Origin: Maylandia zebra
Lineage: Eukaryota; Chordata; Actinopteri; Cichliformes; Cichlidae
Reading direction: 5' to 3'
NCBI RefSeq assembly: GCF_041146795.1
Contig: NC_135177.1
Location: 22,418,560 to 22,482,559, forward strand
DNA length: 64,000 nucleotides
Below the pieces are notes generated by a model. That model did not search any database. It saw only the letters and a list, made by a program, of their open reading frames with translations, and had not been told where the DNA came from. Positions 4,727 through 45,366 of this stretch are shown here, one piece after another; position 1 is the stretch's first letter, and every line of letters starts with the position of its first letter. The position numbers and the translations under genes were made by a program.

Positions 4727-7700
4727 TCAGAGTGGTCCCACCTACACAAAAGAAAAGATACTGTCAGCTAAATAGTACACATACTTCTGGCTTCTGCTTC
4801 AGCGGCAGACGTTTCACTTACCCCCTCTTTTTAGCTTATGAATGCTGCAGGTTCAAAAGTAAATCATTCAGCCGTTTCCTCCTCTGTTCTCTGCTGCAAA
4901 CTTCTCCTTCCCCTTGTTTTTCTTCCTCTCCCTCCTCCTCATGTCTGCTGTGGGTTTTGGTGGGCTGGAGTGAACAAGTATGCACAGTTAATTTCAAAAG
5001 CAGATTTTTTTATCCTTGTGGAATTTTTGCATTGTTAATATATATATATATATTTTAATGTTTGTAGATTTGTTGACTCACACAGGGGCTGGCAGTGAAC
5101 GAGCTGGAGGTGTCCTGACTTTGGTGGGGGGGGTCACTGCTGATAACCGTCACTTCCACCCCCACTGGATGATCTGAGGGTCAAAGGCCAAAGAGTTTTC
5201 TGTATGTTAGTGAAGGCGACGTAGGAGGAAATGAAAACTGCGCTCGTTTCTTTTACAGAAATGTCTGTAATTATGCAAGTGTCCTTATTTCCCCTTGATT
5301 TCTATCTGCAATCAGTCATGGAGTCTTTGATGGAAACTGTGTGTGGTTTCACTGTTAATGGGGAAAGTTGATGCCTGCTGGGTTCTTGGACACCAGCGGT
5401 GGATGACAGAAATGGGGAAACATTTCTGCAGGCTGAATTCTGTGGTTGGAAAACCACTTAGTTTTTGTTGCTGAGTATGATATGCAGAGACAAGCCAGTT
5501 GTGAGGACGGCGGTCTGTACGGCACACACGTACACATACATGCACACGTGGAGGAAAAGACACAACACAAGACGCCGAAAGAAGTCGGTAGAAATGAAAA
5601 TGTATAGAGTTTAAACCACATACACGGGGGCATACACGAACACCTACAGAAACAAAAACTAACACACACACTTGCTTCATGGACCTGACTTGATGTGGCT
5701 GTCGTCCCCATTGGCTCCTTCACAGGACAGATGTCGTGAGTCGCCCTCCTCTCCCTCCCCCTCTGCGTCTCGTTCTCTCTCCCTCTCTATTCTCATCCGG
5801 ATTTGTCTGTCTCTCACCAGCTCCCAGTTCCTCACAAGGAACACACGGTGCTTCACCACAAAGCTCCTGGCCCGGCACAAATGGAGAAACATGAACTGCT
5901 GACATTAGTTCAATAATATCGCAACAAATAGTTTAATGTGAAACGCGAATCGTCGTGTACTTTCCGTACCTCTCGCTGCTGGTCAAAGGCTCCATGTCGA
6001 GGTGCGGGAACAAGCTGGTAATGTCACTGGAGCTCTCCTCCTTTACAATAAATGCAGAGACGCGCGTAAGCTTCGGGACAGATTATTGCAAAAACATTCA
6101 TCACTGGAATCAAATAACCACGAGCCACAAAAAACTCACCGCTGTCTGCTGATATGATGCAGTCCTCTCTTTCAGCCGGCCTGAGTGAATCAGAGAGAAA
6201 GAAACACGGTAAGAAAGAAATTATCCGGCAAGCTAAACCTGACGACATCTAACAACTGCTGTAACACTGTAATAGCGGTGACTCACAGTAACGCCGCTTC
6301 CTCTTCAGGGGGACAGCAGGCTGTTGGTGAAGCTGTAACCAAACAACATGAAAGTTAGATCCAAGGACATTTTTTTAAAAGCTTGTGCCCTGCAAAGTCT
6401 GATCTGGTGTGACTGTACCTGGTTGTGCTGCCAGAGCCACATCACATCATAGGGCAGCTGGAAATGAATTCTTTTTAGCCTCAGGTACTTCCCTGAAGAA
6501 GATAAAGTGAGCTTAGCTGCATTACTACAAGAACATAGTACACACTAGCAGTGTTTACATTTTCTTATATACTCACCGACATGGATGGGAGCAGGTAAAA
6601 GGCTGTACTCGTTCTCCCCTGGCGTGTACTCCATGTTCTCTTTGCAGTTCTTCTGGGTTTGGGAGGGGGGGCTAGGAAAGATGCATAATAAATATTTAAA
6701 CAAACAAACAAAAAATAAAAAACATAACGGAAAAAAACCCCCATTATAATAGTTTGTTTATGGATTCAGTCAACTCACTCTGTAGTTTTGTAATCATCAG
6801 AGTAAAGACCTGCCCTCAGGAATTTCTTCCTGGGAGGACCATCGGCCTTTTCCTCTCTTTGGATGGTTACGGGTTGGGGCGGAGCCTGGTCGACGTCTGA
6901 CTGGCTAAAACATTCAGGGAGGGCGTCGCACTCGGATTTATCCTCAGCGACACTAAAAAGGAAAGCACAAAGAGAGAGATAGAATGATAGAGAGGGAAAA
7001 GAAAGAGAGAAAGGCACTGGTTTAGCACACAGTGCTGAAAACGATGGGTTAATAGGACAGTAGTGAGTGGTTGTATTGAATTTTCAAGTCAACCAGCTCA
7101 GGTGTTTACCTCTGATGACAGGGCGAGTCACTGTGTTTTCTCTTCCGTCCTCTCTTCCTCTTGGCCTGCAGCTCCGACTCCGTCACCTGCTGCGCCGTGT
7201 CGCCTCCTCCCCTGTCTCTCTCTGGCAGTCTTTCTTCTGTTCTCCCTCCCACTTCTCTCTCATCTCTGACGTGGCTGTGTCCTGGCAAGATTTCAGGTGA
7301 GGACATGGACGGCGTTGCAGATAAGTGCGCGAGGGAGGACACAGAGGAGGGCAGCGGGTGCTTCCTGGGCCGTCCTGGCCTTCTTTTGTTCTTCAGCGCC
7401 GCGCTGTCTGACGTTGGCACACTTTTCTGCTGCCCTCGGCTTCTCGAGTCACCTTGTAAACCTGAAGTCATCGAAATAACAAGGGGGGGGGCAGTCGGAG
7501 GCATGAGGGGAGGGTGGGGTGTAAGTGGTGGAGAGGAAATGAGACAGATGTGGATCTGTGATTGAGCCGGCAGGAGGTGTGAGGTGAGGCCAGTCTAGGC
7601 TGAGTCATGCACATAGGCCGCACATTAGGTGAGTCACAACATTTCCTCTGACCATTTCACTTCTGGGAAACACATTAAAAAGTGATTTATGCACGCCACA

Positions 7701-10700
7701 AAAAACAAGGAAAAGAAAAACAGACATAAACACGGTGCATCATGCATGCTTTTTCAGTGAGCATGCACAAATATGCACTAAGCACACTATTTATTTTTTA
7801 CAAATTCGGTTACTGTGAAATACAACCCCAGAAAGCTCAGCAGCTACAGACGGCGAACGGATGTCAAATGTATTCCTCCGCTTGCAAAAACATTTTTCCT
7901 TTGCCCCCCGTCTGACCTCTGTGCTATTCCTTTATCCATCTCTCTGAGGTCATTCGTCTTTTTGTTCCATTTTCCACTGCCAGTGACAAGACTGACCACT
8001 CTTTCCTTATTGGATTTTTCCAAGTCAAATAGGCCTTGTTGGGCAGCAGTGAGGGATAGGCCAATCTTTAAATAGCCAATCTGGTGGTTAACTAATGACT
8101 GTTCTCACTGGGTAGCCCTAGGCTGCAACAGCGTGTGGTTCACTGCCGACCAGGAAGATTTCAAAGATTTTCTGGCAGATTCCCATCAAGACGCTGCTCT
8201 CCTGCTATAACACTTTATAAAAATTCCAGCAGATAGTGGTTGCTGAGAGGCTGTGTGTTTGTGTCAGGCATCGTCTCTCGCACAGCAGAGAGAGTCTGAA
8301 ATTAGCTATAAAAAGAATGGAGTCTGATTTCCTCTCAAACACCCTCCAGGCTTTTGATGCATGGCTTAACAACACCTGAGAAAAAGCAGCGCTGTCCCTA
8401 TACTGGGGACACTACTGGTAGCACAGTTTCATCTCCACATTGCACAAATATAAAAATCTGTCATACCGTGCAAGTGGAAAGAAGCTCTTGGCATAAATCT
8501 TATTCACTCAGCTAGCTGTCATGATTTGCTCGCTGCTGTCATATTTCAGTGGTAGGTACATTTGATGATAGATTCCCTGCTTTATCTAGATTACTGTCAG
8601 TATCCTATATATTCATATTCTCCGCCGTTGACACAGTAGCAGAACACAACAGCCTATTCGCAAAACTCAAAATGCTCTCAGTGGAGATTTCTGTAGCATT
8701 CATCAGCACAGTCACGCTGTCATGCGATCGCAGCCTCACACTGATCGATCGGGTGAAAGCAAAGACTTGTCAGAGATCAAATCATTCATGCACCCTCACC
8801 TGCGTCTCTCCTCTCTGTCCACGCCGGTTCGTGTCTCCTCCACGACCTCTCTACATTTCCTTGATTCCTAATGGCCAATCCACTGCTCAGACCCCTCCCT
8901 CCTGTTGCTATGGCAGCAGACGTGAACAGGTTGGTGTGTGTCGGCGATGGGGACGTCGTGTACAGATGCGACTCTTGAACATCCTCGTCCCCATCTTCGT
9001 CCTCGCCGTCCGACGCGATCAGTCTTCCTGCATGCTGGTCTCCGGTGAAGCCTCTCCAGCTGGGGTTTGAGTTTCCGAACGCTGTAGCTCCCAGACTCCC
9101 AAATTTCGCCCAGCTCTGACCCAGGCCGCCCCATCCTCCTCCGAATGAAGACAGGTGAGAGGATCCCAGCCCCAGTGACGTGAGCGAAGTGTGTTTGTAC
9201 CTGTCTGCGGACGATGACGATGAGGCAGCGGCAGCAGCGACAGCGGAAAAGGAATCATTTCCATTCTCACGCAGCCAAGTTGATTCTTTACCCAGCATGC
9301 TCCCTGTTCCCCTTGCCACTTTCCTTCCTCCTTCTCCTTGCCCCAAAACGAACCCCAACCTTGACTTTGAGCAGGCCAGCCCCTCTCGTTCCACTCCATC
9401 TTCCTCCTCGTCCTCGTGTATCTCCTCCTCCTCGTCCACGTCTCGTTCGCAGTGCCTGTGACGATGTTTATGTTTGTGTTTGTGTTCACTCCTCCCGCAG
9501 CCGTAAGAGAAGCCGGATGCGAACCCTGAGCCGAGGTGTGGCCGTCCTCCACTGCCTACCCCGATATCCCCTTCGATTTCCCCTCCTAAAGCTCCCTCCC
9601 TCAGCAGCCTACTCCTCCGCCTGTGAAACCTAGGTGGATTAAGGAGAAAGTGGGCGTGGTGGGGCTGATGAGGGGCATACTGGTGGGGAGATGGAAGCGT
9701 GTAGGAGGGGAGGTGGTGGTAAAGTGTTGTGGTTGTGGGATAGCTGTTGTAGAAGCCCATATTCTCAATGGTCTCCTGAAACTTTGAAGGGCAGCCGCAT
9801 TGCCTGCGGTCTGGCTTTCTGTTGCAGTGGCAAGGGTAGAAAGGCTGCGGGGAGAACGTGGGATTAGCAGAGAAAGATGACGGGTGAGGAGAGTAGAAGC
9901 CATTTAGATTGATCCTGAAAATGTTGGAGCGGTGGGAAGAGGAGGAATGATGTCGCCTTCCTCCGGCAGCATTCGCACTCCCATCAAAGCCTTGTCCCAG
10001 TCCTGTCCTCGCCCAGCTACGCCGTCCAATATGTACCTCGCTGAACTGACTGATTAAGTCTTCGAGTTCGGCCAGAAACTCTGGGTCCTGCATGTGCAGC
10101 TGCTGGTGCTTCTTCTTGTGTTTATTTTTCTGTCTCTTCAGTGCATTGTGCCCAACACAGGAATAATAGTCTGAATGAGTGCACTTGTTGTGTCCTGGAC
10201 AGGGGCAGGGACACAAGCAGGTACAGGAAGGAGAACAATCGTAATCCCTGCGCCTGTGTCGATGTCGGTCTCTGTGCCGCTCCATGGTATTTGAGTTGGC
10301 CATGGGGTTGGTGTGTCTGGGGATGTGAGACAGAGGCAAAGAGACTGGAGAGGGACAGTCCATGATGGAAGAAAGGTGCCTTTGACCACCTAGAATCGCT
10401 CCTGACCCCTGACCCATCCTCAACACGCCCCGAGGTCCCCTCATCTCCCCTCGCTCAGAGACGCTGTTGTTGTCTGTTCCGATCCCGCTGTCGCTGGGCA
10501 GGGTCTCTTCGCTGTGTGATTCACTCCTCGGGGACGGGGTGGCCTCTTTCAGGTGGCCAGGAGAGCCAGGTGTGTGATGCAGTGGAGGGGTGGGGCAAGA
10601 GAGCTTACATGAAGACTGGTGAAAGGGGAAGTGATGCCTTCCCTGACATGGACAGCTCTTCTTCACAAAGGGAGAGAGCGATGAGGAGGAGGGAGGACGG

Positions 10701-13700
10701 GGGGAGGTACAGGAGGAGGATGGGGAGGGGAGGTAGAAGGGGTGAGGAAAAAGTAGGGAGGATGTTGGTTCTGCGAGGCTGCCCTCACTGTAAGGACTCT
10801 GGGCCCCACTGGAGTGAGTAAGAGATGGGGAGGGAAACGGGTGAGACGGAGGAGGCTGGGGTTGGTTAGTCGAGAAGAGAGAAGTTTCTGAGGGACTGGT
10901 AAACAGAGAGGAGTGAGTGGAGTTCTGGGAGTTTGAATTTAGGTTGGCGGTTTGGGATTTAGGCTTGCGTCCTCGCCTCTTGCCCATGTAGATGGTCCCC
11001 CTCTTGCTCACATTGATCTGAGGGCCTAGCTTACTTCCAAAGGAGGAGGACAGGGCTGAGAGTGTGTGTACTGTTGTAGCCTCTATCGATTTACACATTC
11101 TCTGAGAAGTCTCACCATCTGCTGCCTCTCCTGCCCTTCCTTCCTTTCCTAAATACCCAGACAGCATTACTTTGTGAAATCTCCTCTTCTTTCTTTTCTT
11201 CATCTCATTAATCAGCCTCCTGAGCTTTAGCTGCCTGTTTCCCTTTTCAGGGGGGTGAAAATCTTTACCACTCACTGTATGATCAGCGTGATTTAGTGCA
11301 TCTCCACTCGCCTCCTCGGGGAAAGGTCGTTTGGGAGGCCGGCCACGCTTCTTGGGGCTGGATTTAGACTGAGCCACACACTGTAGTATTGCACTTGGCT
11401 CCAGCACAGGGGCTTTCGGAACTCCGTCACAGCCCCGGAGAGGCACCTCAGTTGCGATATCGTTTGGTGTAAGCTGAGGGGGAGGTTCGTCTAAACTAGA
11501 GCTGTAGGATTTAGGACGACCCCTTTTTCGGGCCGTGTTTATGGGGTTTCTGGAAGAAGGGGGGCTGGATTCTGATGTGGGGTGATTCTGCTTTGGGGTT
11601 GGAGGTTTGGTTGCAGAAGACACTGGGGAGGAGCTGCTGGTTAGGGAGCCAGAGGTTGCTGGGTGTGACTCATCACTCTGCTGAATAGTGGCTTTGGCAG
11701 GAAGGGGCGTCTTGGTGTTCTGGGTGAAACTCAGTAAAGGATTTTGTAGTGAATCAGAAGGAGCTTCCTGATTTTCCACTCTCTGAGCCCGGTGCACCAG
11801 CTTGGTCCAGCTGGGCCTTCTGGCTTTACGTTTTTTGAGCGGTCGGCTATCCTGCTCTTGTGGGGAAGAAGGGGGAGAAATGGGAGAATGGGCAGAAGGC
11901 GTGGGCACAGGGGGAGGAGCAGAAGAGGAGGGGTGGCTTGGAGGCACTGTTGAATGTCTCGAGATGTCCTGTTCTTTTGATTTACTCGTGTCACCTGTTG
12001 TTGTTGCTGCCTCAGCTTGTGTAACTGACTTGCAACTGTTATCTGTCTTCTCCTTCTCATCTGGTCTGCCTGTATTCACTAATTTGCAGGTTTTATCTAG
12101 CTTGCCGTTGTCAGCAGTTTCCCCACATTTTGCACTGTTATCCTCTATTCTTTGTCTGTCTGGGCTGAGCTTATCCCTCTTTTTCTCAACCTTTCCTCTG
12201 TCACTCTTTAGATCATCCTTCCGTATATCATCACTTCTATGTCGTTCATCCTTTTCTTTTCCATGTCTCGATTTCCCATCCTTCCCTTTTTCCTTTTTCT
12301 TCTTCTTACCCTCCTCCTTTCTGCCCTCGTTTTTTGCTTTATCAGCCTCCAGCCTATCTCGCTTCGACTTCTTGTCTTTGCGTTTCTCTTTTTTTGCTTT
12401 TCTCTCTTTCTCTCTCTTTTTCTCCAGCGGGTGCTCTACAGAGGGATCGTGACCTTGGGATTGGACAGAGAGTTCCACAGCGGGGGATGACTGCGGTTTT
12501 GGGGTAATTGAGGGATAGGAGGGAGATTCTGGCCTGCTCTTATTGGAAAGGCTAAGTTCTTTATGGGAACCAGTGGAGACTAGAGGTCTTGTTGAAGAGT
12601 CCATGGAAGAAGTAGAGGTGGAAGTGCTGTGTTTTCCAACTTTGACTTTGGATGAAGTAGGAGTGCCAAGAATGTTAGAGGAGCCTTTCCCATTGGACAG
12701 GCCCTTCTGTTTGGTTGTCTGTACCAAACCATTATGCTTCTTGGAGGTGTTTTCATCATTCCTGGTTTCCAGTGGAGACTGCGTCTGGATGCATGGGCTG
12801 GAAGGAGTAGTTGAAGCTGCCTGGTCTGTTGTGGGTGAGCAGGGTTTGGGTCCTGCAAGGACGGGCTGGCCATTGACGCTCTGAGATTTGTCTTTCTTCA
12901 CTTTCTCAGATGAATTCCCCTCTGTCTTATCGGCCAGCTTGATAGGAACCTGAGAGATGAAAAACAGAGAAAAAAGAAAGAAAGAAAAAAGCAAATCTCT
13001 GTCATAGGCATCTTTTAGTTTGCTGTCAACAACAGTGACGGACAATGAAAAAGAGACAGTAACTGAAATTCTTTTGTTATTGTTCCCCATTAAAAAGGAC
13101 AGTGAAGATAAAAACGACTCAATCAAGCAGAGAAACGAGGGCACACTGAGGAGGAGAGAGTGGAAACAGGAATGGGGTTGACAAAGAGAGGAGAAATACA
13201 AAGGCAGAGAAACGGAGAGGAAGGGAGTGGGACAGGGACCGAGGGGGAGTGAAAGATAAATGAGAGCAGGTAGAGAAAAGAGGGGATGTAAAAATAGAAG
13301 AGAGGGACAGATATAGAGAGCCAAGCAGAGACAGAAAGAGAGGGAGAGAAAGCCTTGCTATTGGTGGCTATAAATTGCCACTAATACAGATGAGAAGGCT
13401 TGACATTTCATACTTGTTCTGTAATTTTGGTATGCTGTAGCTTGAGTGGCGTTTGTGCAGCTAAAGCTATAAGCTTTCCCTTGGGTGATTGTCATAAGGA
13501 CTGATGGGCCAGTGTCTGTAATAACTCCAAGCGGTTGCCGTGCTGTTGTCCTATTTATAGGTCTGTTTTTAAAATGCACTGCTTGAGTTTCAGGATTGAG
13601 ACAATGGCTGTTAGATAGATATTACAAGTGAGCTCAATGCTGGGTGATTTTGCACCACATCAAAGACTCTATGAGAATGGTGGTTAGCTGTAAAAAGCCT

Positions 13701-14539
13701 AAACAAAGCACAAAGGTGCCATTTCTCAAGCTAACTTCAGCTAATTGCAGATTTATTCAGATTCAGATCAACTTTATTAATCCCCTTAAAAAAGGGCAAT
13801 CTGTTGGCAACTGACATGAGGAACGCTGTACATATGTGAGGCCTTGTCCTTAACTTACCTGTTTGGCAGACTTCGTCCCTTGGCTGGTTACGACAGGGAC
13901 AGAGGCCGGGCTGGAAGCTGTAGAAAATGTCGGTGACAGCGACAGTGACTGTGATGACGAAGACAACAACGGTATTGATGATGTAACTGGTGGTGAAGCA
14001 GCAGATGCAGTTTGTTTGGATGTGGTCTGGACAGCATCCAAGCCTGAGTGTTGCTCTCTGTTTGCTTCGTCTGGGGCAGAGCTGGTTTTACTCTGCTGGC
14101 CCGCTCCCCCTCCTTCTCCATCGCCCTTTAGCAAACCCCCCCTGCCTTGTCTCTGATAGGTCCTGATGGTGGGCTTGCAGACGTAGCTCTCCAAGATCTT
14201 GGGCGGTTTCTTGGTGCGCTTGGTTTGGAGACCAATTCGGACTCTTACATTCCCCTCGGGGCAGCTGGCCTCTCTGCCAGAGAGCTGAAGCTGTTGCTGC
14301 CCCACGCTGCCACAGCGCCCCTCGATGAGCAGCTCCAGCACTGCCCCCTTGTCTCCTTCTCTCTTTCTTCCTCCTCCCTTTTTGTCCTCCTCCTTTTTTC
14401 CCACTGCCTCGCCATTCTCTACTTCCCCTCTCCTCTTTTTCTCTGCCACTTGGTCCTGCTCAGAGTCTTCAGGTGCAGAGGCGGGGTCCAGAGTGGAGGC
14501 TGTGGTCGGAGGGGTTCCCCCCTTCACTCTCTGGTCCAT
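4727..14539 (-). CDS. ash1l: ASH1-like chromatin protein lacking the AWS-SET domain
   Basis: Coding exons in gene order are 14539-13859 (start ATG at 14539), 12949-8800, 7461-7110, 6952-6779, 6671-6577, 6492-6419, 6332-6287, 6180-6140, 6040-5970, 5866-5685, 5173-5082 and 4741-4727. All phases close, giving 1990 residues; human ASH1L has about 2970. Family marks include KRTKKPPK near the N-terminus, [31 protein letters not shown] and [10 protein letters not shown]-hooks lie near residues 699, 758, 882, 1637 and 1711. The segment [13 protein letters not shown] (FQLP at 1828-1831) matches the MRG15-binding motif of ASH1L. From there the protein runs through [11 protein letters not shown] into [19 protein letters not shown], a segment that in human lies after the SET domain, so AWS, SET and post-SET are missing. 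No bromodomain, PHD or BAH follows. The last junction is the least sure: the donor at 5685 is weak (GTCCAT), and reading through it ends the protein at once as KSGP. The protein is presumably nuclear and DNA-binding. It should have no methyltransferase activity. Confidence 0.9.
7462..8799 (-). other. ash1l: ash1l intron between the large exon and the AT-hook exon
   Basis: This 1.3 kb intron has a consensus GTGAGG donor after 8800 and a CAG acceptor before 7461. It joins in phase to give the sequence RRDAGLQGDSR. I see no repeat or hidden exon in it. Confidence 0.8.
12950..13858 (-). other. ash1l: First coding intron of ash1l
   Basis: The donor GTAAGT follows 13859 and the acceptor CTCAG precedes 12949. 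Near 13755-13790 it holds a short AACTTTATTAATCCCC stretch like the 3' tails of fish LINE and SINE families. That match is too short to name a family. Confidence 0.6.
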
Positions 14540-14567: not shown

Positions 14568-17447
14568 CTGTGAGGTTACCAGTACAACACTTTAAAACGA
14601 CTCCAGTGGGGTTGGTGGGGTCAAGGGTGAAGAGCAGAATGCAGGTGTCGATCACAAGGGTCACAAAAAAAAAGATCCAGTAAGAGTCCAAGTGCAGCTC
14701 TGTACCTTCATCCGGCAAGGGAAGGTCTCTCTGATGTCCTTTACAGTTACACTGAGACAGAGTAAAAGGCAGAAGGAAAGTGGAAGAAAAGACAGAAAGA
14801 TAGAGAGGCCAGTGATTAGTCATTTCAGTGAGCTAAGATGTTGAACAGCAGCAGTACAGGAATTGAGGGGAAAGTCCCCTTCCTTCAGGCAGCTGTAGCG
14901 AGGTGCTAAAGTCTGTGTCCACAGAGATGATCTCATCATCCAGAAAACCCAGGAGGCCAATCAACGTTGCTGATTCCCAGAATGTCGGCATTAGCTGGAA
15001 GACTGACTTACATTCCCCCCAAAAAAACAGCCTGGGCTAGTTCGCTCCGACAATCCGCAAATATCGATGGAGCTAAAAGACAGCGAACACACCCCAAACC
15101 TCTACACTTTTCACTTATGTCGTAATCCTTCCCGTGTCTCTCCGCAAATCAATCTATCAATCAATCAGCTTCTGGCTAATTCAAACACTTGATCCAGTCT
15201 CCTCCCCTGCTCCCTCCACTGTCTTTGCGCCTTCTGTTCTCAGCTACTCCCACAAGCACTCCTCCTCCCACCCTTCCCGCTGCTGTACTTTCTTTTCTCT
15301 CCGAAACTCCCCTTTTCATGTTTGGCAGTAAGCTTTTGCATGCATTCTCTATTAGTCCCTCCACTCTCTCTCTCTCTCACTCTGTGTGTGTGTGTGTGTG
15401 TGTGTAGACCACACAGTAAAATGGTCAACTCATACACTGTATCCATGTTAATCAGAACCATATTTCCTCTTCCTTGTCGTTCTTTTCCTTCTCTCCAACT
15501 TAAATCTCTCCATTCACAGTCCGACTGTTCCCCTCCTCCCCTTTCAGTAGTGGTAACACAAATCCGTAGGAAAGGGTAAAACTTATTTTTGGAAAGGAGC
15601 GCAAATTCCTCCTCCTCCCATTGCTTCCTCTAAGTCAAGTAAGCTTTTCATTGACCCCCATTGTAAATGGCCTTTTAATGTGACATTATAGTGAAGTAAC
15701 ACACCCTAAAATAACATTCTCCTCACCAGGAAAAAACTTTCACTCTCATTCGTGGTGTTTCCAGACCGCTTTTCAACGTGTCGAAGGGAAGCAGCATCTT
15801 TCTGTCATGCTTCCTTCATTATTCGCTCTCCCTCATTAAGGGAGACACTCATCCATTTTCTAATAAAACACACCCGGGCAAGCATTCTTGCAGCTCTCTC
15901 CTGAGCGCCTCTTATGAAATAGCTCATCTGTCTCTCAGCGCTCTGAACTGCCCCCTTAGACTTACGAGAGCATCTCAGATAATGTTTTCATTTAAGAGCT
16001 CAGTGGGCTATCTCTCGTGCCTCTTGGTCCCTCCCTCCACACCCAAATCATAGAAGCTCAAATCAACATCTGTTTCAGTAACCGCTGTTATGTAACAGTT
16101 TTGGAAAGCATTTCCAAGACCAGTCCTCCTTACAATGAAAGAAAATGAGCGTAGAGGTGGACAGTGGTCCTCTTGAACTTAACTGCGGCAACTTTTATTA
16201 TCAAGTCCACTCCAGAAGCCTGTGCGGAGGGGCCGTGAGCACAAGCAGTATGAGTTACAAACCTGTTTGTGAAAACTCGCCATAAGAGGAGAGCCAGAGT
16301 GGCAGGTTTTCAGACTTAAAAGGGCAAGCCCATTCAGCATCAGTCAGAGTGCATACTAATGGCTTTTTATAGTCTCCAGAACTATACCTCTCACACATAA
16401 CTCAAAATTATTCTAACATTAGACCAGAAGCTATTTCCAGTGACAGGATGATGGGTTGACTTGACACTGTAGTCAGTGCGGTGGCTCGGGAGCGCCGAAG
16501 CAACGATTAAATCATGATAATGGCCCACCATATTTCCAGCCATCATCACCATCCCATGACAGCGTTATCATCGATAACTACAACACTATTATCATCTGCC
16601 TGACAACAGCATGAGCCCAGCTGGAAATTGGGCCCCTGTGATGGCATCTGAAATCACTGAACCACGAAGCCTCGCGGTAAGCGTACGGGGAAGTTTCTCA
16701 CGTGAGTCCCCCTCCTCAGACGCGCACACGCACACACACTTTCCCTCTAGTTAGTGCGTTGGCCGTACATTGTGTACCCGGGTCGCAGCTGCGTAGGCTC
16801 ACTGATGTTGCTACTGTAGATACAGTATGGGCAGTGGGGGTGTTACCGCACTGGAGCAACCTATCACTGGTTTACCGAGGACGTCAACAGGAGCTTCCTT
16901 CTCCATAATGACTTTGCGCACCTCGGAAAATCACCACCCGCCTGATGCTGTCGCACTTACAAATGATACACACATGCACGTGTTGTTGTTGTCGTCACTC
17001 CTGTCTCCTATTTTGAGACATATCGCACATCTACGCGCCCTAAAACATGACCCAGCTGCACGTTTCAAACTCAACATGGAAGTGGGAGGCTACGTAGCAC
17101 GAAAAAATGTGCTTGCTGGTAGTGTTTGTGCTGGTGCGGATTAGTACCGAGCCACCTTTTTCCTCAGCCCCCCCTCCCCGCCTCTCCTCTCTCTCGCTCT
17201 CTCTCTCTTCTATCTGTCCTCTGCCAGTCCTTCTGCTGGTGTCAGCAACATTGAAATAAGAAATATCACCGTGCGGGGAGAACAGAGGGGAGGGAAACAC
17301 ACTCGGCAACAAGGGATAAAATTAGCGCAAAGCGGATGCACAAAATTCTTAACCTGCTGCGCTTTGAGCCCGCTGATGATGACAGGCCTGCACGCATTAA
17401 TACGGACTGCCATGACAAGCAGTAATAAGGCTACGTAGGCTACTTAC
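14568..17447 (-). other. ash1l: 5'UTR intron(s) of ash1l
   Basis: The start-codon exon begins at 14567 after a CTCACAG acceptor. The nearest strong upstream donor on the minus strand (GGGGTAAGT) ends an exon at 17448. Between them I see pyrimidine-rich sequence with short GT repeats (15383-15404) and no coding signal. Confidence 0.5.

Positions 17448-17931: not shown

Positions 17932-17990
<59 letters not shown>
17932..17990. repeat. (GT)n microsatellite
   Basis: An uninterrupted alternating GT tract of 59 bases lies just upstream of the likely ash1l promoter. Long GT/CA tracts can form Z-DNA and vary in length. A role in ash1l expression is only possible. Confidence 0.95.
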
Positions 17991-33000: not shown

Positions 33001-35774
33001 AGGAGAATAAATGAATCCAAAACATCTTAACAAGATAACTTGAAAGCCTAATGTAGTGAAATACAAGAAGGGGAAGAGGGAATAAAGAACTTTTTTTGAC
33101 TTCAAGTCTCACAAACTTGGTGTCCAAACTGTTCAGCAAAGGAAAAAATGTCAATCTGATAAGCTGTTGATAGAAATCAACCCAAAGAACGACGCTTGTC
33201 TTGCTATTTCACGACAGTTAAGAATCAGATGAAACCAGGCTAAAAGCAGATTAATGCAAATGTTCTGCAGTGGTTCAACAAATAAAGTCAAAACCACTAA
33301 CACTGTAAGGCATCTTTCACAATTATGTTGAGTGAAGTGCATTATTTTTCCTTTTCAAGGTCTTGTTAATCACTGTTTCAACCATAATTTCCATTAACAT
33401 GACTTGTGGAGGGATATTAAAGTATATATGGATGAATTAGCCACTTACAAACTCCAAAGACTGATTTACACCAAAAAATAGGGAAGTTGTTGGATCTGCA
33501 AAAGAAAAATGCAAGCAACAGGCAAAACTGTGGCCCTGTAGTCTAATTTAACCAAATAACTTATTAAAATCAGTATTTACCCATTATGCTATAATTAGCT
33601 TCCAGTTAGCCTATTGAAGCTAGGGGAAGGACTTTAAGAAAAAAAACTTGGTGTCACTCGATGAAAGTCCAGAGGAGAGTTTATAGTGGTAAAATGAGTC
33701 GTGACTGGAATTGGAATCACATAAAAGGACATTTACTTTACTCAGTGTCTACAGCGGCTGTGAGGAAACGTATATTTAAAGACTTTACTGAAACCTTTTG
33801 GGAGGAAATAAATCCAGTATTTTGTGTATACTTTTCTAGGACTGATCTGGAAAATTGTGGCGCTGTTACTTTAACCACGTGGAAAGTTTTATTCCTTATC
33901 TCTGCCAAGGAGGTTTGCACGTGTGTGTCATCTTTCTATCTGTGAAGTTATGAGTGAATTCTGATAAAATTGAATGATTTATTGATAAAATCGACAAAAA
34001 GTCTTAATGCTTAGAAACTATGATTCTTACAAGTATGGTGTATTGTCAACACACAGAAAGTACCATATAAGGATTTAAAATGTCACGTCACGTTTGACCT
34101 CTGACCTGACAACATACGCTTATAGGGATATGTGGGGATTCTAAATATGTTAATATATTACGACATTGTTATTTACTTTACAGTAAAAGCTTATAGCTTT
34201 TAAATAAATACCAATTTGAGTACATTTACAATGTTTTATGAATAAGTGTTTTTTTTTTTTTTAAAAACAAAGCAAAACTTTTTTCACTTTATTTATTAGT
34301 GTACATTTAAACAAATGTACTAAACAATAAACAATCAAAATTATGTGAAGTATATTAAAATTAGCTATTGGTTTTAACTGCACTACAAAACTTCTTACAT
34401 TTCAAAATAACAAAGAAAACAAAATGAATATGTAAAAATGTGAAAGGTTCCCCTTAATAGTAAATACTGTCCAGCGACTGAGCTGCCCTAGCAGAGGTTT
34501 GTGCTCTCTGAGTGCTTCTTGTTTTGGTTATTATTTTTTCCCTCTTGTCCCTCCAGGTCTTAAGTGATATTCATGCAGGAAGGTACATCCATGGTGTGGC
34601 AGTCCACTGGTACTTAGACAGCGTTGTGCCACCTGACATCAGCCTGGGAACCACCCATGACCTCTACCCGGAGTATTACCTGTTTGGCACAGAGGCCTGC
34701 GCTGGTTGGAACCCGCTAAACAAAGGAGTGATGCTGGGAAGCTGGGACAGAGCTGAACAGTATGCACATGACATTATAGAGGTAAGATCATATTATCTGA
34801 TGCGTGGAGGTTTGTGCTTGTTCAGTCAGATCCACTGCAAAAAGAGAATTTGACAAGCTGTGAGCTGTTCCAGAAAGGTGAGTCACCTCCCTTCGTGCTG
34901 CAGTGCAGGTTGTGCACACACTCGAGAGACTGCAGGCCTGCAGGCCATCAAAGCAAGCTGGAACTGGTGTTTAGTTTCTTCTTTCTTCACTCTCTTTCAA
35001 GGGAAATTGGACTCCTTCCATTCTCTCTCTTTTGCATGGGTGAATTCAGGCTGCAGACGCTCTGAGAGTCCAGAGGAATTTGTTTATGTAGACGTGCAAT
35101 CCCTGCGATAGTTAAACAAAATGCTAGTTCAGCAGGCTGACTAAATTACACATCTTACTACAAAACACAGAGGAGGTAGTAGATAGTAAACTGTGGGTGT
35201 TTTTCTCCACGGCAGGACTTGAATCATTATGTGGTCGGCTGGACTGATTGGAACCTGGCGCTGGACCCGAACGGTGGACCAAACTGGGTTAAAAACTTAG
35301 TGGACAGCCCTGTTATAGTGGATGCGACGCGTGATGTCTTCTACAAGCAGCCGTCTTTCTACAGCATGGCCCACTTCAGGTAGTCAGGATCTCTGCTCAC
35401 ACTGAATGCTACATTTCACCCGTTCCATTACTTCACTGAGATCTTCTTACATGATCTTTCTACACAGCAAGTTTCTGTGGGAGGGGTCTCAGAGAGTGGG
35501 GGTGTCTGCCAGTGGAGAGACACACCTGGAATTTTCTGCCTTCATCCGACCTGATGGCTCACTAGTGCTCATCATACTCAACAGGTAAGGCATATTTAAT
35601 CTGTTGTAGGAAATGTGGCATGATGGGTAAACACTGAACTGTTTCTATGCTTTGTTTTTCTGTTTTAGATCATCATCAGACATCCTGTTTGAAGTCTGGG
35701 ACCCTCCTGTGGGTTACATCCCCTCCACTGCTCCAGCTCATTCTCTGCTCACACTTGCTTGGAAAAGGCAGTGA
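29893..35774 (+). CDS. gba: Lysosomal glucosylceramidase (acid beta-glucosidase)
   Basis: Hydrolyses glucosylceramide to glucose and ceramide in the lysosome (glycoside hydrolase family 30). Eleven coding exons: 29893-29965, 30112-30303, 30391-30537, 32086-32219, 32294-32466, 32566-32655, 32763-32910, 34557-34781, 35216-35379, 35468-35584, 35669-35774. Phases close to 522 residues; human precursor has 536. A hydrophobic signal peptide covers the first 24 or so residues. The acid/base Glu260 is in TTGNEPSAG and the nucleophile Glu365 in FGTEACAG, 105 residues apart as in human. Other signatures are [37 protein letters not shown] and FYKQP. Several NxT sequons are present (CNSTYC, ANSTG, HNFTL). 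Introns 4 and 8 of the coding part are about 1.5-1.6 kb and hold no recognisable exon; 30900-32000 may contain an unassigned old repeat. The gene appears intact. Confidence 0.98.
29991..30050. repeat. (CA)n microsatellite in the first coding intron of gba
   Basis: An uninterrupted CA tract of 60 bases starting 25 bases after the gba signal-peptide exon donor and ending about 60 bases before the next exon. It makes up much of this short intron. Confidence 0.95.
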
Positions 35775-36511: not shown

Positions 36512-37627
36512 AATACATCATAGACAGTTTATCATAGACATTTTTTTCATATATATAATATACAGTTTCATTACCAAGTATTTCACATTTGGGCCTCCAT
36601 TCTCATGTTTATTTCTTTGCAAATTTTAAGTTGTTGGACTAAAATTATTTACATCAAACAGTGATAAAATGTGAAACAAAAGACAGTCGTAAACAGGAAT
36701 AAAATGACAGAGGGATGCCAGCTGTTTATACTATACACACCAGGAGGAGCATGTTGAAATATGAAGCATTGTATATGGGGCCAAGCTCTGAGGATTTATT
36801 TTTATTCCCTTGCTGGTACTATGGGTAATTGTTTTGTTTTCTTCTGATTTAGAAGAGTTCTGAAAGGTGTCTTGAATCCCTTACTTTCCTCTGTAGTTAG
36901 TCCGACCTGTTTGTGACCATTTTACAGCAGCAACTCCACATGATTCCTATACAAGACTGTCGTGCTCCTGAAACACTGCAGAGTGTGCACACAAAAACAT
37001 AAACACCTTTACAGTCCAATCCAATTAAACACTAACATATCAACAGTCACTCGACATCTTCCTGACACAATCTCAACAAAGAACATTATACAGACCCTTC
37101 ATAAACAGCATTTATTTCAGGGATAAAGGTGTTCATGCTGTTATGGGTTGCCTCTGTGCATGCGTAGAGTGAAAAAAAAAATCACCTACAGTCTTTTCAT
37201 ATGCTTACAGGGCTCAGTTGCAGGATTTAGGTAATCTTAAGATGAATAAAGAGGGAAAAGCATGAAGAAGTCTGGTATTTCTCCACCATAGTCTATTGCA
37301 GCAGTATATTTAAAGAAAAGATTTGAAAGCAGTTTCCTGGGGGGTTCAAAGTACAGAGGATATGGGCTTGATAAACAATCTAGGCTGGTTTGTTATTAGG
37401 CAATAAAAAAAAAGATAAATCTGAACTTAACTGACTCTTAAGACGTCTGCATTGGTACACAGGTGAGGAGAAAGGCATTATAATAAAAAGTAAAAATACA
37501 AAAACTCAGACAGAGATGATTATGACTGCAACGGAGATGAACAGAGGGAAATGAGAAGCATTTTGTCTTCTCAGTGGGCTGCTTGATGTAGGCGAGGAGA
37601 ACTAAAGGGATGCGACAGGTGGGTGTC
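36512..37627 (-). other. rnf115: Presumptive 3'UTR of rnf115
   Basis: AT-rich sequence without coding frames, between the rnf115 stop codon (37628-37630) and its candidate poly(A) signal. Confidence 0.55.
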
Positions 37628-40600
37628 TCAGAAGGACCATCTCTCCTGTGTGCGAGGGTCCGTGGAGAGCGAGGGGGACTCTGATGGGGGCTGGCTGCTG
37701 CTGTCTTCTCCGTTCAAACTCTTCCTACACACTGGACATGTGTCATGCTGCACGGCCACAGAACAAAATGCAGAAAACAGTTGCTAAGCACAGTTTTCTC
37801 ACAAGTGTCTGAGAAGAGTTTTAATAAGTGGAACATTATTTCGGGCCTGTTTTAAATGACGTCAGTCTGCTCTTTGTCTTTGATTGTGACTCATTTTTAA
37901 AAATGTTTCAATCTGCTCAGCCAATTATGTGCTATCCACAGCTTCCCAACTGCTAATATCAAATAACTCGAAGACGAATGCAAACAAATTTTCAGATTTG
38001 TAATTTTTTTTTTTAACCTTTTGTCCCATGCAAATTCCAGGTAGATTTTCAAAATAACACATTCACAGAGGAGGATAACATACTAAAAGCACCATGCAAT
38101 AATAAAAACACTGACTGTATCATTGCAATAAATAAACTATCGGGAAGCATTATTCAGCATACAGAAGTGGCATTAAAACAACACTTCATCAGTTCCACTC
38201 CATTATCATCAATTTAAGCTAAGTGTTACTCAGGTCCCACCTACATGGCATTTCCATCATGACTCAGATAATCAAATCACATATTTGAGGTTCCTGTAGA
38301 TCTGAATGCTCTCAAATGCAAAGTGAATAAATAACACATAGAATCCTCAATGTCATGTATGGTCTCTGGTATGGTTATATTTAATAAAAATTCAACGTTT
38401 TTGATGTGACTCACCATTTCCAGCCACGGTACTATACAGTCTGAGTGAAAGAAGTGGTTACAGGGTAGCTGTCTGACGGGCTCTCCAACTCTAAAGTCCT
38501 CTTTGCATACAGGGCATTCCATACAGCAATCTATTGAAGAGGATATGTGTTTTTAAATCTTTTCCTGACATCAACACCCTTGTCATTTTTGATTGAGACA
38601 GCTTCACACATGTTTACAAAGTGGTACAGCTACGTTTCTTGAGGAGATATACATTACACTTCTCAACAGAGAATAACACAAAGTCCTGAGAATGCACCTG
38701 GACATTCATCTATGCCTTAAAGTCAGCTATCAACAGTCCTGCAGCAACTGGACAGCATAACTAGTCACACAGTTACAGCTGAGTGGGTAAAATAGGACAG
38801 CATACCAAGAAGAGGAAGTCAAGAAGAACAGAGCCAAAAGAGGAAAGAAAATTGGGGAGGTGAAAGACCAGGAAGCAAAAATATATATATTGTCATGGCT
38901 ACTGGGCATTTCGTCCCTAACAGGCACAGTTTCAGAAGCTCCTTCTAACAGGCAGCAAGTGTATACAAGACATTTAAGTGCTGTGAAGATTTTGAAACAA
39001 CTATGTATCAACAAAATGGACACTTTGTCCTTAGCTATTTTTTTTCAAAGCTGAAAACAAGTAAAAATAAAACATTATATGGAAACATGTCAATGAGTGC
39101 ACATATACAACTAAAGCAAAGTAATACTTGGTTTAACATTTTTCTGGAATGCATTACTGATTATTTTGTAAGCGGACAGCATACAACACACTGACTTCAA
39201 GAGGTATGAATAGTGCGACCACTATTTAAAACACAAACTTAGTTGTAGTAGTAATAAATAGGGGTTTGACCTGACAACTCGAGCAATGGCAAAATTGCAA
39301 TTTGTATTTCAAGGACAGAATAAAGAAACATCAGGGGACAGTGAAGGAAAAAAGATAATCAGAGGTGACTGACCGGCTTGTTCCTGAGAAATATTGACAG
39401 TTGGGAGTGAAGAGATCTTCTCCTTTTCTGCTGGCGGAGGTCCTGTGTTCTCCAGCTGACCTAGTAACTACACAGACACGGGCACATATGTAAATACATG
39501 AGAAGAACACAAATTTTGTAGACTATTTTATAGTTTGTTTACCTGTGTTATCACAGCATCTAATCCTCCCTGCCCCCATGCATAATCCCCAGGGTTAGAG
39601 TGCAGCATCCCTGTCCTGAACGAAACACAAATAGACCTTTTTAATAATAATAATGTTATTTTAAATTGTAGTAACACCTTGTTGCTCTATAATGTCATAT
39701 TACCATGACAGGGGAGGGGAGCCAGGGATTCCAGAGTTGGCAAAAAGACCAGCAAGAAATTGTTGTACAATCCTGACAAACAGAAAATGTACAGCAGTTA
39801 ATGTCATTACCAAAAATAAGATCGGTTCGGGGGAAAGCATAAATAGCACTGTCATTATAAGTGGGAGTATTCAAGGCAGAGAATAGAGCCAGGAAAAATG
39901 ATGAACTAGTGTGATACTCACCCTTCCACAGCAGGCGAGCGGTCTGGCCTACTGCTGCCTCTAGACCGGTATCTCCTCTGGCTGCTCAGACGAGGGGGGC
40001 GTCCTGGTCCCCAGTGTTCCCCAGCTCCTAGTAGGCCCCCCATAGATCCTCCTAGGCCTGCTGGGACAGATCCCCCAATTGGTCCCCCTCCTAACCCTCC
40101 TAGGTCACCGAAACTCCCCAGGCGCCCACCAGGGAGCCTAGGTTCTGAGTCTGGGCTGTCAATGTCTCTTGTAAATGGCCGCTCGACTAACAAGAGGTGC
40201 CATAGCTTGATGAAATAATAATAAAGAAAAGAACAGTAACAGAAGAAAAGGAAAAGATTAAGTAAAGTAAAACATACAATCATGTTAATTAAACCTCTTT
40301 ATCCTGTATTCCTTCCTCAACTCCCCAAACCTTTCAGATCATGTCATACCTCTGCAAACTGTGTGGCTGTGTCATCTAGCCCATTGGCGCCGACCTCTAG
40401 GAGACTGAGGGAAACAGCGCACAAGGGGACAAAAGACTCATTATTAGCAACATGCACTGTTCAGCTGTAGCGTAAGCCTGGAACAAAACTGCAGAGTGAG
40501 CCTACAAGTTACAACAGTGCAACATCAGCGTTCTTCAGTACATGTCCATGCTCTTGTTCCAGCTAAAGCCTGTGTGTGTGTAGACATCATATGCTGTCTA

Positions 40601-42691
40601 GAGAAGTGAAATGGATAGTGACGATAATACAAAAACCTCTTACCTGGAGTCTTCTGTTACTTCCTCAATGAAACCCGAGTCACATCTCGGACAGATGTAC
40701 TCCTAGAAATAGATTGAGCCATGTAAGAGTCAAATAGAAGAGGAAAAATTCATTTTATTTATTTATTTATTTTTTTAATTTCCTAGACCCTACTATTCAA
40801 ACTATTCATACTACATAAACTATCCAGTAATTTAAATATTCTATTCTCAATTATATCAATTCTCACAGAAAAATAAAATAAAATCAGGAATCAATAAATA
40901 CCTGGAATTTTTTACATTAAAATTCAATTACACTATCAACTGAAAGTATTTGTTTGTGTTGGTTAACTATACACCACTTTGCATGTGTGAAAATGAGATG
41001 TGACAAAAGGTAATATTCCATCACTGTCAAATCAGCATCCATTCCACAAAATAATTACAGCACGTAAAGACATTTTGCGGCCTAATATGGCACACAAAGA
41101 AGTACAGCCAGATAATATCAGTAAGAAGTGTGACGGCCTGTATTTTGTGAATGCAACCAAGTAGGTAGAGCTGGTCTGCCAACCACACCTAAAGAGAGGC
41201 GTTATAGAAAACCTGTGTAACAGAATGAGGAAAACACTGCCAGCCTTTTGTATTATGCTTATACCATGCTTAAGTTCACATGACAATTTTAAAACTCATA
41301 TTCGCACAGCATAGAGAAATTTGGGGATCTAAAATGAATTTTGTGGTTAAAACGTGTTAAGAAACTTTGCCGTAAGCAAAACAGTTTGTATCAGTTGAGT
41401 GTCAAATTGGACAACCTCACAGATTATACAGTTTGTTGTATAAAACGGACAGATGACTGAGGACTGGTGCCTGGGCTGTACTGTAGTAGCACAGGTCGAC
41501 AATCTTAGGTGTTGGAGTCACTTAGCTCAGTGAAGACATGCCATAGGACTGACTGTGCCTGGGACACTTTAGAGTCAGTGACAAGGAGGACTGGAATCAC
41601 CCTCAGCTGGATCATAAAAATAAAAGATTAATGTGTCTCTAGTGGTGATATAAAACCAGTCAACAGTTCATTGTGAATATTGTAATTTTTTTTTTTTTTT
41701 TAAACAGGGCAGAGTTTGTCCACAGTATAAGATTATTTTTGTCCAAACAAAAAATACTTTCTTAAAGGACTATGACAACCAGCAATTTTTTTATTATTAT
41801 TTTTTATTTGGGGAGGGGGGGGGGGGAATCTGAGATTTCACCTACAAAACACAACAAAACACCACAGTAGTAAACAGTGCCACTGAGAACTGTGAGAAAG
41901 CTACAGCTGACCATAACCTTGTATTGGAGTAGGTTAATTTTAGGTTGTTGTATTTAATATACTTGTAACACACTGAATACAAACACACGCCATACTATTT
42001 AAGACGTGGATGACATGTTTCAAACACGTTAAAGTTGCTAAGTATGTCACGGTTTAGGTCAGCATTGAGTCCAGAGTTTAGCTTCTACTTTTAACTTCAA
42101 AACTGAAACTGAATACGACATGTTTAACTATGTTTCCAAAAATCCCCCAACTCGTCCTGTCAACACTGCGTTTTTATCGGAAATTAAAAACTAACCAGCT
42201 GTCAGGCAACTAAAGTTAAGTGTGAAGCACTAAACAAAGGCAGCAGTAACGCAAATGTTTTCGACAAGTCCTTGTTGTTTTGAGGAAAAACACAACATCC
42301 CCGAACTGTCACAGCAGAGCTTCGAGTACACTGCTTTGACAGAAACGTCTAGGAAAGTCTAACAAAACCTGTCGATATTTGCTTTTAATGTCAGTTTTTT
42401 CCCCCCACCCCTTTCCTTTGACGGAGCTCGTAGCTGGAGTTTATTTTAGTGAGTTAACAACAGCAGACGTCGCTAACTGCTAACAGGCTAGCTGGTGTTT
42501 AGCTGTAGCGAGAAAGCAAGCGGAACAAATGGCCGTTAGCGGTGAGGCAGAGCTGTCAGCCGGACGTATTCTAAAAGAGTCTGACAGATAAACAAGAAAA
42601 GCCTCTTGCTTACCGGTAGTTTGGGGTTTACTTCACCTTTACAACAGTGACAGAAAAACCGATGCGGGGGAACAGCCGCAGCCTCCGCCAT
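37628..42691 (-). CDS. rnf115: E3 ubiquitin-protein ligase RNF115 (BCA2)
   Basis: RING-H2 ubiquitin ligase of the RNF115/RNF126 pair, acting in the cytosol on membrane-protein sorting and turnover. Nine exons in gene order: 42691-42614, 40702-40644, 40404-40350, 40205-39922, 39772-39704, 39615-39543, 39467-39374, 38530-38415, 37747-37628. Phases close to 315 residues; human has 304. The N-terminal BCA2 zinc finger uses Cys14, 17, 30 and 33. The sequence [17 protein letters not shown] and the gene's position identify RNF115 rather than RNF126. The RING-H2 ligands are C243, C246, C261, H263, H266, C269, C280 and C283. A Gly-rich stretch ([11 protein letters not shown] and on, near 85-120) replaces the Ser/Asp/His-rich linker of the human protein. 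The start ATG sits in a YY1-like AAGATGGCGG. The gene shares a promoter region with polr3c. Confidence 0.97.
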
Positions 42692-42919
42692 CTTCCCCAG
42701 AGCAGCACAAACACTGACGTCGGTCCTCCACAAACCGAAGGCAGCCGTCCACCTCCAGCCCAGCATGCACCGCGGCGCCGCTGGCTGGAGTCCCAGCTCA
42801 CCGAGGAGCGGAAGGAAAAGTGTTCGTGTGTTGACGTCAAGAAGCCGCACGTGAAGTGTTCGGTGCGGGTGACGGAGAATAAAAGCAGCATATGTTCAGA
42901 AACTTCTCAGCTTAAAAGG
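42692..42919. promoter_or_regulatory. Bidirectional promoter of rnf115 and polr3c
   Basis: The two genes are head-to-head. This CpG-rich stretch holds a CRE-like TGACGTCG at 42714-42721, a perfect CRE TGACGTCA at 42832-42839, and an E-box CACGTG at 42848-42853. A likely donor, AAAAG|GTTTGT near 42919, ends the non-coding first exon of polr3c. There is no TATA box. Use of these sites is inferred from motif and position. Confidence 0.65.
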
Positions 42920-44050: not shown

Positions 44051-45366
44051 AGTTGTCATTGTTAATTTAGCTACAACTGTACAAAAAGTCAAGCATTTTA
44101 TTATCAATATTACATGCCAGTGCTGTAAGTATTGTTTGGTCTGTTCATGCTGTTGGCAAACTAATTTAGGTAATATATTTTAAATCAGTTTTACAATGTG
44201 AACAAAATTTTTGGACTGTGAGAGCAAGCTGGAGTACCCAGAGCGAACCCACAGTGTTTCAAGTCCCCAGCTGTTTCAAATCCCAAGCTGGCTAGTAGAT
44301 TCAATCCCAGGACCTGCTTGATGTGAGGTGATGGTGCTAACATTGGCCTAAAATGATTTATTATTAACTATAAATCAGATGTTGTAGTTTTTATGCTGTA
44401 CTTGCTGCCCATGTTGGTCTTAATGCTGCTGATGAATTTCATACAATTACCAGGAAATGGACCAATTTGTTGATAGGGCTTCAGGCCTTATCATGAGTAT
44501 TTTTAGGTCATACGGTTCCCATTATTAATAACATTATCATTATTAATGAGTAAGATGTTATTGTTTGTTTGAAGTTAGCTGCTTCAGGATTTTGCCTACT
44601 GATCTGTACTAGGGATGAGTATGATAAGATTTTGCTGATGGCAGTGACACAGATTTTGCTTATAGATCCAAGTCTTTGTTGATTCCTAATCATTTTTTGT
44701 TGTTGTTTGTTGTTTTTGTTGTTAAAAAAGGGTTTTCAGTTTCTGTTGTGCTTCAGAGTCTCTGAGTCTGAAGTTGGTATAGAACAAGTTAAAAAAAAAG
44801 TGATGCATGTGATTCAAGCGTGTGAGAAGTCCACTGTTAGAGACACATCCTACATTGCTTATTTTAGCATTCCTTTTTTAATTCTCCCCTTTTGAATTAT
44901 ATTTTTTTGTGTTCTTGTAGATAGAAACCATATATTGTTTGCACCTTCTAGTAAGGGGACACAAATTATTATGGGGTTTTATGTACATCTTAATATATGA
45001 ACACATAGCAACCAGTGATTTGCACATAGCAACAGCAGTCCACCTCCGTCATAATAAAAATATATTTCACACACTCCATAAAAAGCATTTACTTCTCTGT
45101 AGAAATGTGTTAGTCTTTACAGAGATAAGAGTTTGGTTTTTGCAGGGGGCGACTTATTTAACCTTAAATTACAGATCTCTTGTATCCTGATATGATTCTA
45201 ATTTCAGGTTTATTACATCCAGGTGTTAAGAAAAATGACACTATATTAAAGGAATATAGAGGAATACTGGAATGCTGTTTTTGTACTGATATAAGTAGTT
45301 ACTTACAGCTATACTAGATTTTAGACCTTTCATCACCTGTGTGTTCCTGTTCTTTTGTTTGTGCAG
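44051..45366 (+). other. polr3c: Remainder of polr3c 5'UTR intron
   Basis: AT-rich intron sequence running up to a TTTGTGCAG acceptor directly before the start codon. I see nothing else in it. Confidence 0.5.

Follow-up and report, generated by a model that had tools for sequence, protein, structure and literature searches.

A 64,000-nucleotide stretch of the Maylandia zebra genome (C11:22418560-22482559, referred to throughout as the window) carries what is probably a living, non-catalytic ash1l gene, as opposed to an artefact or a dead copy. This gene, the window paralogue that we call B, lies on the minus strand (14539-4836), and its 12 coding exons, once joined, form an uninterrupted frame of 2,028 codons that closes with a stop (Table 1). 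The same genome (962 Mb, 63 contigs) contains a full-length ash1l, here called A, on contig C21, and all of our comparisons were made within this one genome and one assembly. Our preferred reading, held with middling confidence, is that B is a genuine ash1l ohnolog that has lost its catalytic and reader domains in frame and that serves as a docking protein for MRG15, with AT-hooks but no enzyme.

We found no broken splice site, frameshift or stop in the 12-exon model of B. An earlier note on this DNA had described exons 6 to 9 and a further exon starting at 5866, within a set of twelve consistent coding exons whose phases all close. Each of these exons is present with GT-AG borders, the joined frame is open, and the phases fit at every junction. 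The introns between exons 6 and 10 are short, as had been claimed, but measure 86, 106, 99 and 103 bases and do not span the range of about 85-155 given previously. Exons 6 and 7 had been aligned to ASH1L just before the AWS domain, and this placement holds, as the two exons match the human PDB chains 6ago_A (E 2.5e-12) and 6ine_A (E 2.7e-12). The 3' end of the model is less secure. Alignments of exon 11 to A score no better than shuffles, and because this exon has no homologue the C-terminal tail of B may be mis-modelled; if left unspliced, exon 10 ends HIKSGP-stop.

Table 1. Coding exons and sequence features of B, in window coordinates.
Feature	Position	Strand	Remarks
Exon 1	13859..14539	-	ATG at 14539; conserved block; phases 0 to 0, as A exon 1
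Exon 2	8800..12949	-	4150 bp, open throughout; contains DSGIGT and 3 of the 6 AT-hook-like pattern matches of B
AT-hook block	10958..11029	-	23/24 identical to A; coordinates by arithmetic from residue 868
DSGIGT motif	10475..10492	-	Read as a beta-TrCP-type degron; SETBP1-homology region
Exon 3	7110..7461	-	352 bp vs 670 bp in A; lacks the LLHVNKILRAKKLQRQARTGNN block; AT-hook present
Exon 4	6779..6952	-	174 bp; length and phase as in A
Exon 5	6577..6671	-	95 bp; length and phase as in A
Exon 6	6419..6492	-	74 bp, equal to A; encodes the MRG15-interacting block
FQLP, FxLP core of putative MRG15-binding site	6452..6463	-	From motif comparison (PMC5963871)
Exon 7	6287..6332	-	46 bp, as in A, where it encodes the last residues before AWS
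Exon 8	6140..6180	-	41 bp; probably what is left of the 3' part of A exon 12 (post-SET tail), its acceptor shifted to phase 1
Exon 9	5970..6040	-	Corresponds to A exon 13; phase 0 to 2 in both
Exon 10	5685..5866	-	Corresponds to A exon 14; phase 2 to 1 in both
Exon 11	5082..5173	-	92 bp; homology to A not found; least certain exon
Exon 12 (last, with stop)	4836..4964	-	Tail a probable remnant of A exon 24

Around B, the window contains a glucosylceramidase-like GH30 stretch at 34512-34850 (+), a polr3c-like HTH_9 (RPC82) stretch at 45325-45660 (+) and an integrin alpha-like FG-GAP stretch at 57632-58189 (-). Together with a RING gene described below, we take these neighbours to be a gene set of human 1q21-22. 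The CpG observed/expected ratio is high at 17-19 kb of the window (0.79-0.89), an area upstream of B that is possibly its promoter area. A TG/CA dinucleotide run lies at 17933-17990, upstream of the first coding exon of B. A search of the window for structured RNA returned no Rfam match at the gathering threshold.

The earlier note had supposed that B might be one of two teleost ohnologs, and had pointed to a genome search for a second, full-length ash1l. Gene A, with 24 coding exons, 2,945 amino acids and an open frame, is that copy. Using the C-terminal 210 residues of B as a query, we obtained nine matches in the genome: the window accounts for six, C21 for two (E 1.3e-6 and 9.3e-5) and C5 for one (E 6.8). 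A 750-residue piece of exon 2 gave five matches: itself, two on C21 (3.7e-49 and 9.0e-9) and two on C12 (E 1.2e-6 and 1.6e-5). The intron phases of exons 1-7 are the same in B as in A, and the exon lengths are equal in exons 4-7. At the level of individual exons, the nine that B retains from A each hit the collinear B exon, and a hit as good arose in 0/30 shuffles for exons 1-6, 13 and 14 and in 1/30 for exon 7. Upstream of B, at 37600..42900 (-), is a RING gene that we presume to be rnf115-like, and its counterpart lies upstream of A at C21:13810856-13818465 (+), with the same orientation relative to ash1l and with six blocks in order. As the one neighbour common to the two loci, it provides modest evidence of common descent. 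From the matching phases of exons 1-7 and the rnf115-like gene that precedes both copies, we infer that A and B are ohnologs, and the partner gene, the exon phases and the common neighbour thus bear out the earlier supposition. Identity between A and B at third sites is 0.31 (n=84 four-fold codons at identical residues within conserved blocks), which amounts to saturation and is compatible with an ancient duplication, for instance that of the teleost genome; the date and the teleost origin are our inference. Separately, intron 8 of A (6.4 kb) contains long open frames of 546 and 1,161 codons at C21:13837919-13842881, one of which ends in a tyrosine-recombinase-like stretch that is presumably DIRS/Ngaro-like.

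Comparison with A reveals how much B has lost. At E values up to 0.01, Pfam families AWS, SET, bromodomain, PHD and BAH were found in the C-terminal 1,194 residues of A, and no family was found in B when it was searched at the same threshold in three pieces (exon 1, exon 2 and exons 3-12). Two runs of A exons have no counterpart in B, namely exons 8-11 (AWS and SET; 572 bp) and exons 15-23 (bromodomain, PHD and BAH; 1,271 bp). A block within exon 3 is missing as well. The LLHVNKILRAKKLQRQARTGNN block is also present in human ASH1L and SETBP1, and we take the difference in exon 3 to be a loss in B and not a gain in A. B has thus undergone losses at three places (the exon-3 block, AWS to post-SET, and bromodomain to BAH), each time with its frame intact, and the linkers before and after the lost SET region are homologous to those of A and in frame. 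On its predicted protein, B cannot methylate H3K36 via a SET domain. The absence of AWS, SET and post-SET between 6287 and 5866 agrees with the earlier note, which had not recognized that the bromodomain, PHD, BAH and exon-3 block are also gone.

The earlier note had further described the SET-side loss as clean, and this part of its description needs qualifying. Exon 8 of B resembles the final third of A exon 12 (RLKE-type), a resemblance equalled in 6/5000 shuffles, and exons 8 and 9 together resemble A exons 12 and 13 at 0/5000 shuffles, neither figure being corrected for the number of tests. Exon 9 by itself matches A exon 13 at 0/5000 shuffles and at 0/30 shuffled windows. A tblastn search did not find the match of exon 8 to A. 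We consider exon 8 to be probably the surviving 3' part of A exon 12, its acceptor having shifted, and because this acceptor is of phase 1 and that of A exon 12 is of phase 0, the SET-side loss was not a pure exon skip. At the C-terminal end, exon 12 of B resembles the tail of A exon 24 at 18/5000 shuffles (uncorrected), and it is also the best hit of A exon 24 in the window (E 0.21, a value reached in 3/30 shuffled windows); it is thus a probable remnant of that exon.

To look for relics of the lost exons, we compared each A exon with the whole window, with 30 shuffled windows as the control. For each of the 13 lost exons, between 2 and 28 of the 30 shuffles gave a hit at least as good as the best one in the window: 2 for exon 20, 3 for exon 22, 4 for exon 19 and 6 to 28 for the remaining ten. 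None of these window hits falls in either of the introns from which the exons are absent, and we therefore take them to be chance. The candidate relic of A exon 20 (E 0.033; plus strand, 14878-14946, in the 5' flank of B) was rejected, with a single shuffle giving 0.039 and 2/30 shuffles reaching it.

Since a single assembly is the basis of these observations, the SET exons might exist in the animal and have been dropped from the assembly. We regard such an error as highly improbable. There are no N letters in the window, the two missing domain blocks are separate and each lies between GT-AG exons with fitting phases, and the flanking exons have already diverged from A. Moreover, A is the only ash1l-type gene among the loci compared (five with AWS and three of the best with SET). 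The five AWS places include A itself, at 100% over the exons covered, and the remaining four agree with the SET exons of A at 30-65%; for the three SET places the figure is 39-58%. Given these levels of identity we rejected all seven as a third ash1l-type SET gene and assigned them to other families, presumably NSD/SETD2 and others. This statement covers the SET and AWS family searches, whose counts are lower bounds (at least 83 SET matches), and the eight loci compared. Several groups of 3 to 10 SET matches have exactly equal scores, with their members mostly on different contigs (e.g. C2, C4, C7, C9, C16 and C33). Most of these groups have one to three internal stops, and two of the equal-score copies show a frame of at most 98 codons, which includes part of a SET-like stretch. 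They may belong to a dispersed family of SET-bearing repeats or retrocopies.

Several observations bear on whether B is under selection. Over 490 codons in conserved blocks, dN between A and B is 0.28 and the synonymous difference is 0.755, beyond correction, so that divergence at nonsynonymous sites is by far the smaller. These figures average over all the time since duplication, which indicates that B was coding for most of it and leaves the loss of its domains undated. A young unitary pseudogene, in which the domains were lost recently, selection has gone and the frame is open because little time has passed, would fit the same averages, with drift following the loss. The several losses in B, its short and weakly conserved C-terminal tail, and its faster evolution than A around the MRG15 block (see below) are all in keeping with such a history. 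However, the frame is intact at each of three sites of loss, and the phases fit at every junction, including the acceptor whose phase differs from that in A. We also simulated neutral decay (200 runs per step, assuming 0.1 indel per substitution) and recorded the fraction of copies with no stop and no frameshift. This fraction was 0.055 at a divergence of 0.005, 0.015 (3/200) at 0.01 and 0/200 at 0.02, so that under the assumptions of the simulation 1% of neutral drift would seldom leave an intact frame. A young pseudogene is thus, in our judgement, unlikely. The earlier note had proposed an intact ash1l duplicate devoid of its methyltransferase, and the full-length partner, together with a frame that is open in B despite saturated synonymous sites, upholds that proposal.

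We next consider what B has kept. In the alignment of A with B, 723 of 1,785 residues are identical, the last two exons of B being misplaced against A by the aligner. Ranked by identity to A, the best non-overlapping windows of 24 residues are the AT-hook block with 23 identical residues, the DSGIGT region with 22 and the MRG15-binding block with 21. On conserved parts the earlier note was incomplete, having missed both the MRG15-docking block, which is among the best-kept parts of B, and the loss of the histone readers. AT-hook-like patterns match six times in B and seven times in A, where those at residues 643 and 1319 have no B counterpart. DSGIGT in B is, we assume, the motif of the SETBP1 hotspot degron. 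In the MRG15-binding block, B has KYLR with its arginine, FQLP, and the hydrophobic residues V and M at positions P+3 and P+4. In the literature KYLR is described as an invariable motif, with R1288A weakening Mrg15 binding (PMC5696344), and FxLP is placed about 40 residues before AWS (PMC5963871). The SETBP1 hotspot degron is described in PMC5989213.

Of the 12 exons, the one that encodes the MRG15 block, exon 6, shows the lowest dN (0.17), in a comparison in which exons 11 and 12 are poorly aligned; pN is 0.152 and pS 1.03 over its 24 codons only. With human as the third sequence, 38 residues covering this block and the next exon contain 10 private changes in B and one in A (p 0.012), and those of B are divided equally between exons 6 and 7 (five each). 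This faster evolution of B in the MRG15 block fits relaxed constraint as well as it fits a changed role.

Published work on Ash1 and MRG15 suggests how B might act. Ash1 is reported to recruit Mrg15 to targets (PMC5696344), and the partners of MRG15 share an FxLP(x)2-3 hydrophobic signature and are argued to be mutually exclusive (PMC8701324). We propose that the AT-hooks would place B on chromatin and that its KYLR/FxLP block would hold MRG15. Given this mutual exclusion of partners, MRG15 held by B would be unavailable for activating full-length Ash1l, the product of A; alternatively, B may bring MRG15 to its own sites without H3K36 methylation. Under this scheme, which we built from motifs and published interactions, B would be transcribed, would bind DNA and MRG15, and would either compete or recruit. 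More specifically, and only tentatively, we suggest that B is dedicated to the Ash1-MRG15 complex, which it would antagonize or recruit without being an enzyme itself, as a regulator acting in trans on the other copy. A search for literature on competition for MRG15 by the small binder MRFAP1 found none.

Two further reports constrain the proposal. Nurf55 binds a different, more C-terminal region of Ash1 (human 2065-2964), according to PMC5696344, and because much of this region is missing B would form at best a partial complex. Similarly, the C-terminal part of ASH1 is reported, acting with MLL1, to suffice largely for the activation of Hox reporters (PMC3225378); a large part of it is missing from B, which may for this reason lack activator function.

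B could instead have been retained as a structural or regulatory protein unrelated to MRG15, with its SETBP1-like half being what matters and the MRG15 block a passenger. The two best-conserved windows are indeed the AT-hook block and the DSGIGT region, and SETBP1 has been reported to activate transcription by binding AT-rich promoters (PMC5989213). But the MRG15 block ranks third among the windows, and no exon has a lower dN than exon 6. We consider this explanation rather unlikely, and we continue to favour B as an MRG15-docking AT-hook protein.

At stake is whether Ash1L acts only via H3K36 methylation. With a HoxA9 reporter, catalytically dead ASH1 is reported to give about double the activation obtained with the wild type (PMC3225378), and according to a 2025 paper (PMC11883000) information on the N-terminal 2,000 residues of ASH1L is lacking. 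B, which would consist of almost only such N-terminal residues and the MRG15 switch, would be a case in nature where the two functions are separated with no need of engineering. B is also a warning for domain-based gene counts, which are blind to it because it has neither SET domain nor bromodomain: one ash1l is named in the accessible text of a zebrafish SET-gene survey (PMC2200798), and one in that of a tilapia bromodomain survey (PMC9454494). We found no fish ash1l duplicate and no SET-less fish ash1l in the open-licence PMC literature, which is weak evidence of absence.

Like ASH1L/Ash1 (KMT2H), B has the AT-hook half, the DSGIGT motif, the phases of exons 1-7, the KYLR/FxLP block, the linkers that flank SET and, probably, a short C-terminal tail; unlike it, B lacks AWS, SET, post-SET, bromodomain, PHD, BAH and the exon-3 block. 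ASH1 has itself been described as having an N-terminal SETBP1 homology domain (PMC3225378). In this genome, a locus on C12 that is distinct from B (19712554-19715862) contains GTIYIGKKRGRKP and DSGIGTDNN blocks in common with ash1l, and by sequence these shared blocks show the kinship of the two families. We take this locus to be setbp1. SETBP1 is not known to have a SET domain, and B resembles it in having AT-hooks and a DSGIGT region without SET. B differs from SETBP1, however, in being a second ash1l copy with the ash1l exon layout, in keeping the MRG15 block, the exon-10 linker and probably a C-terminal remnant, and in lacking the HVNKILKAK block of SETBP1. Judged by its predicted protein, B is a second SET-less member of the wider ash1l/SETBP1 family, reached by another route, and if our reading is true it would be, after SETBP1, the second SET-less chromatin protein to come from the ash1l family. 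Finally, B shares the FxLP(x)2-3 hydrophobic signature with the MRG15 partners PALB2, MSL1, MRGBP and Pf1, in which it serves for docking on the MRG domain (PMC8701324). Its block differs from theirs in being inherited from ASH1L, where it switches on the very enzyme that B has lost, and in B the binding of MRG15 is putative.
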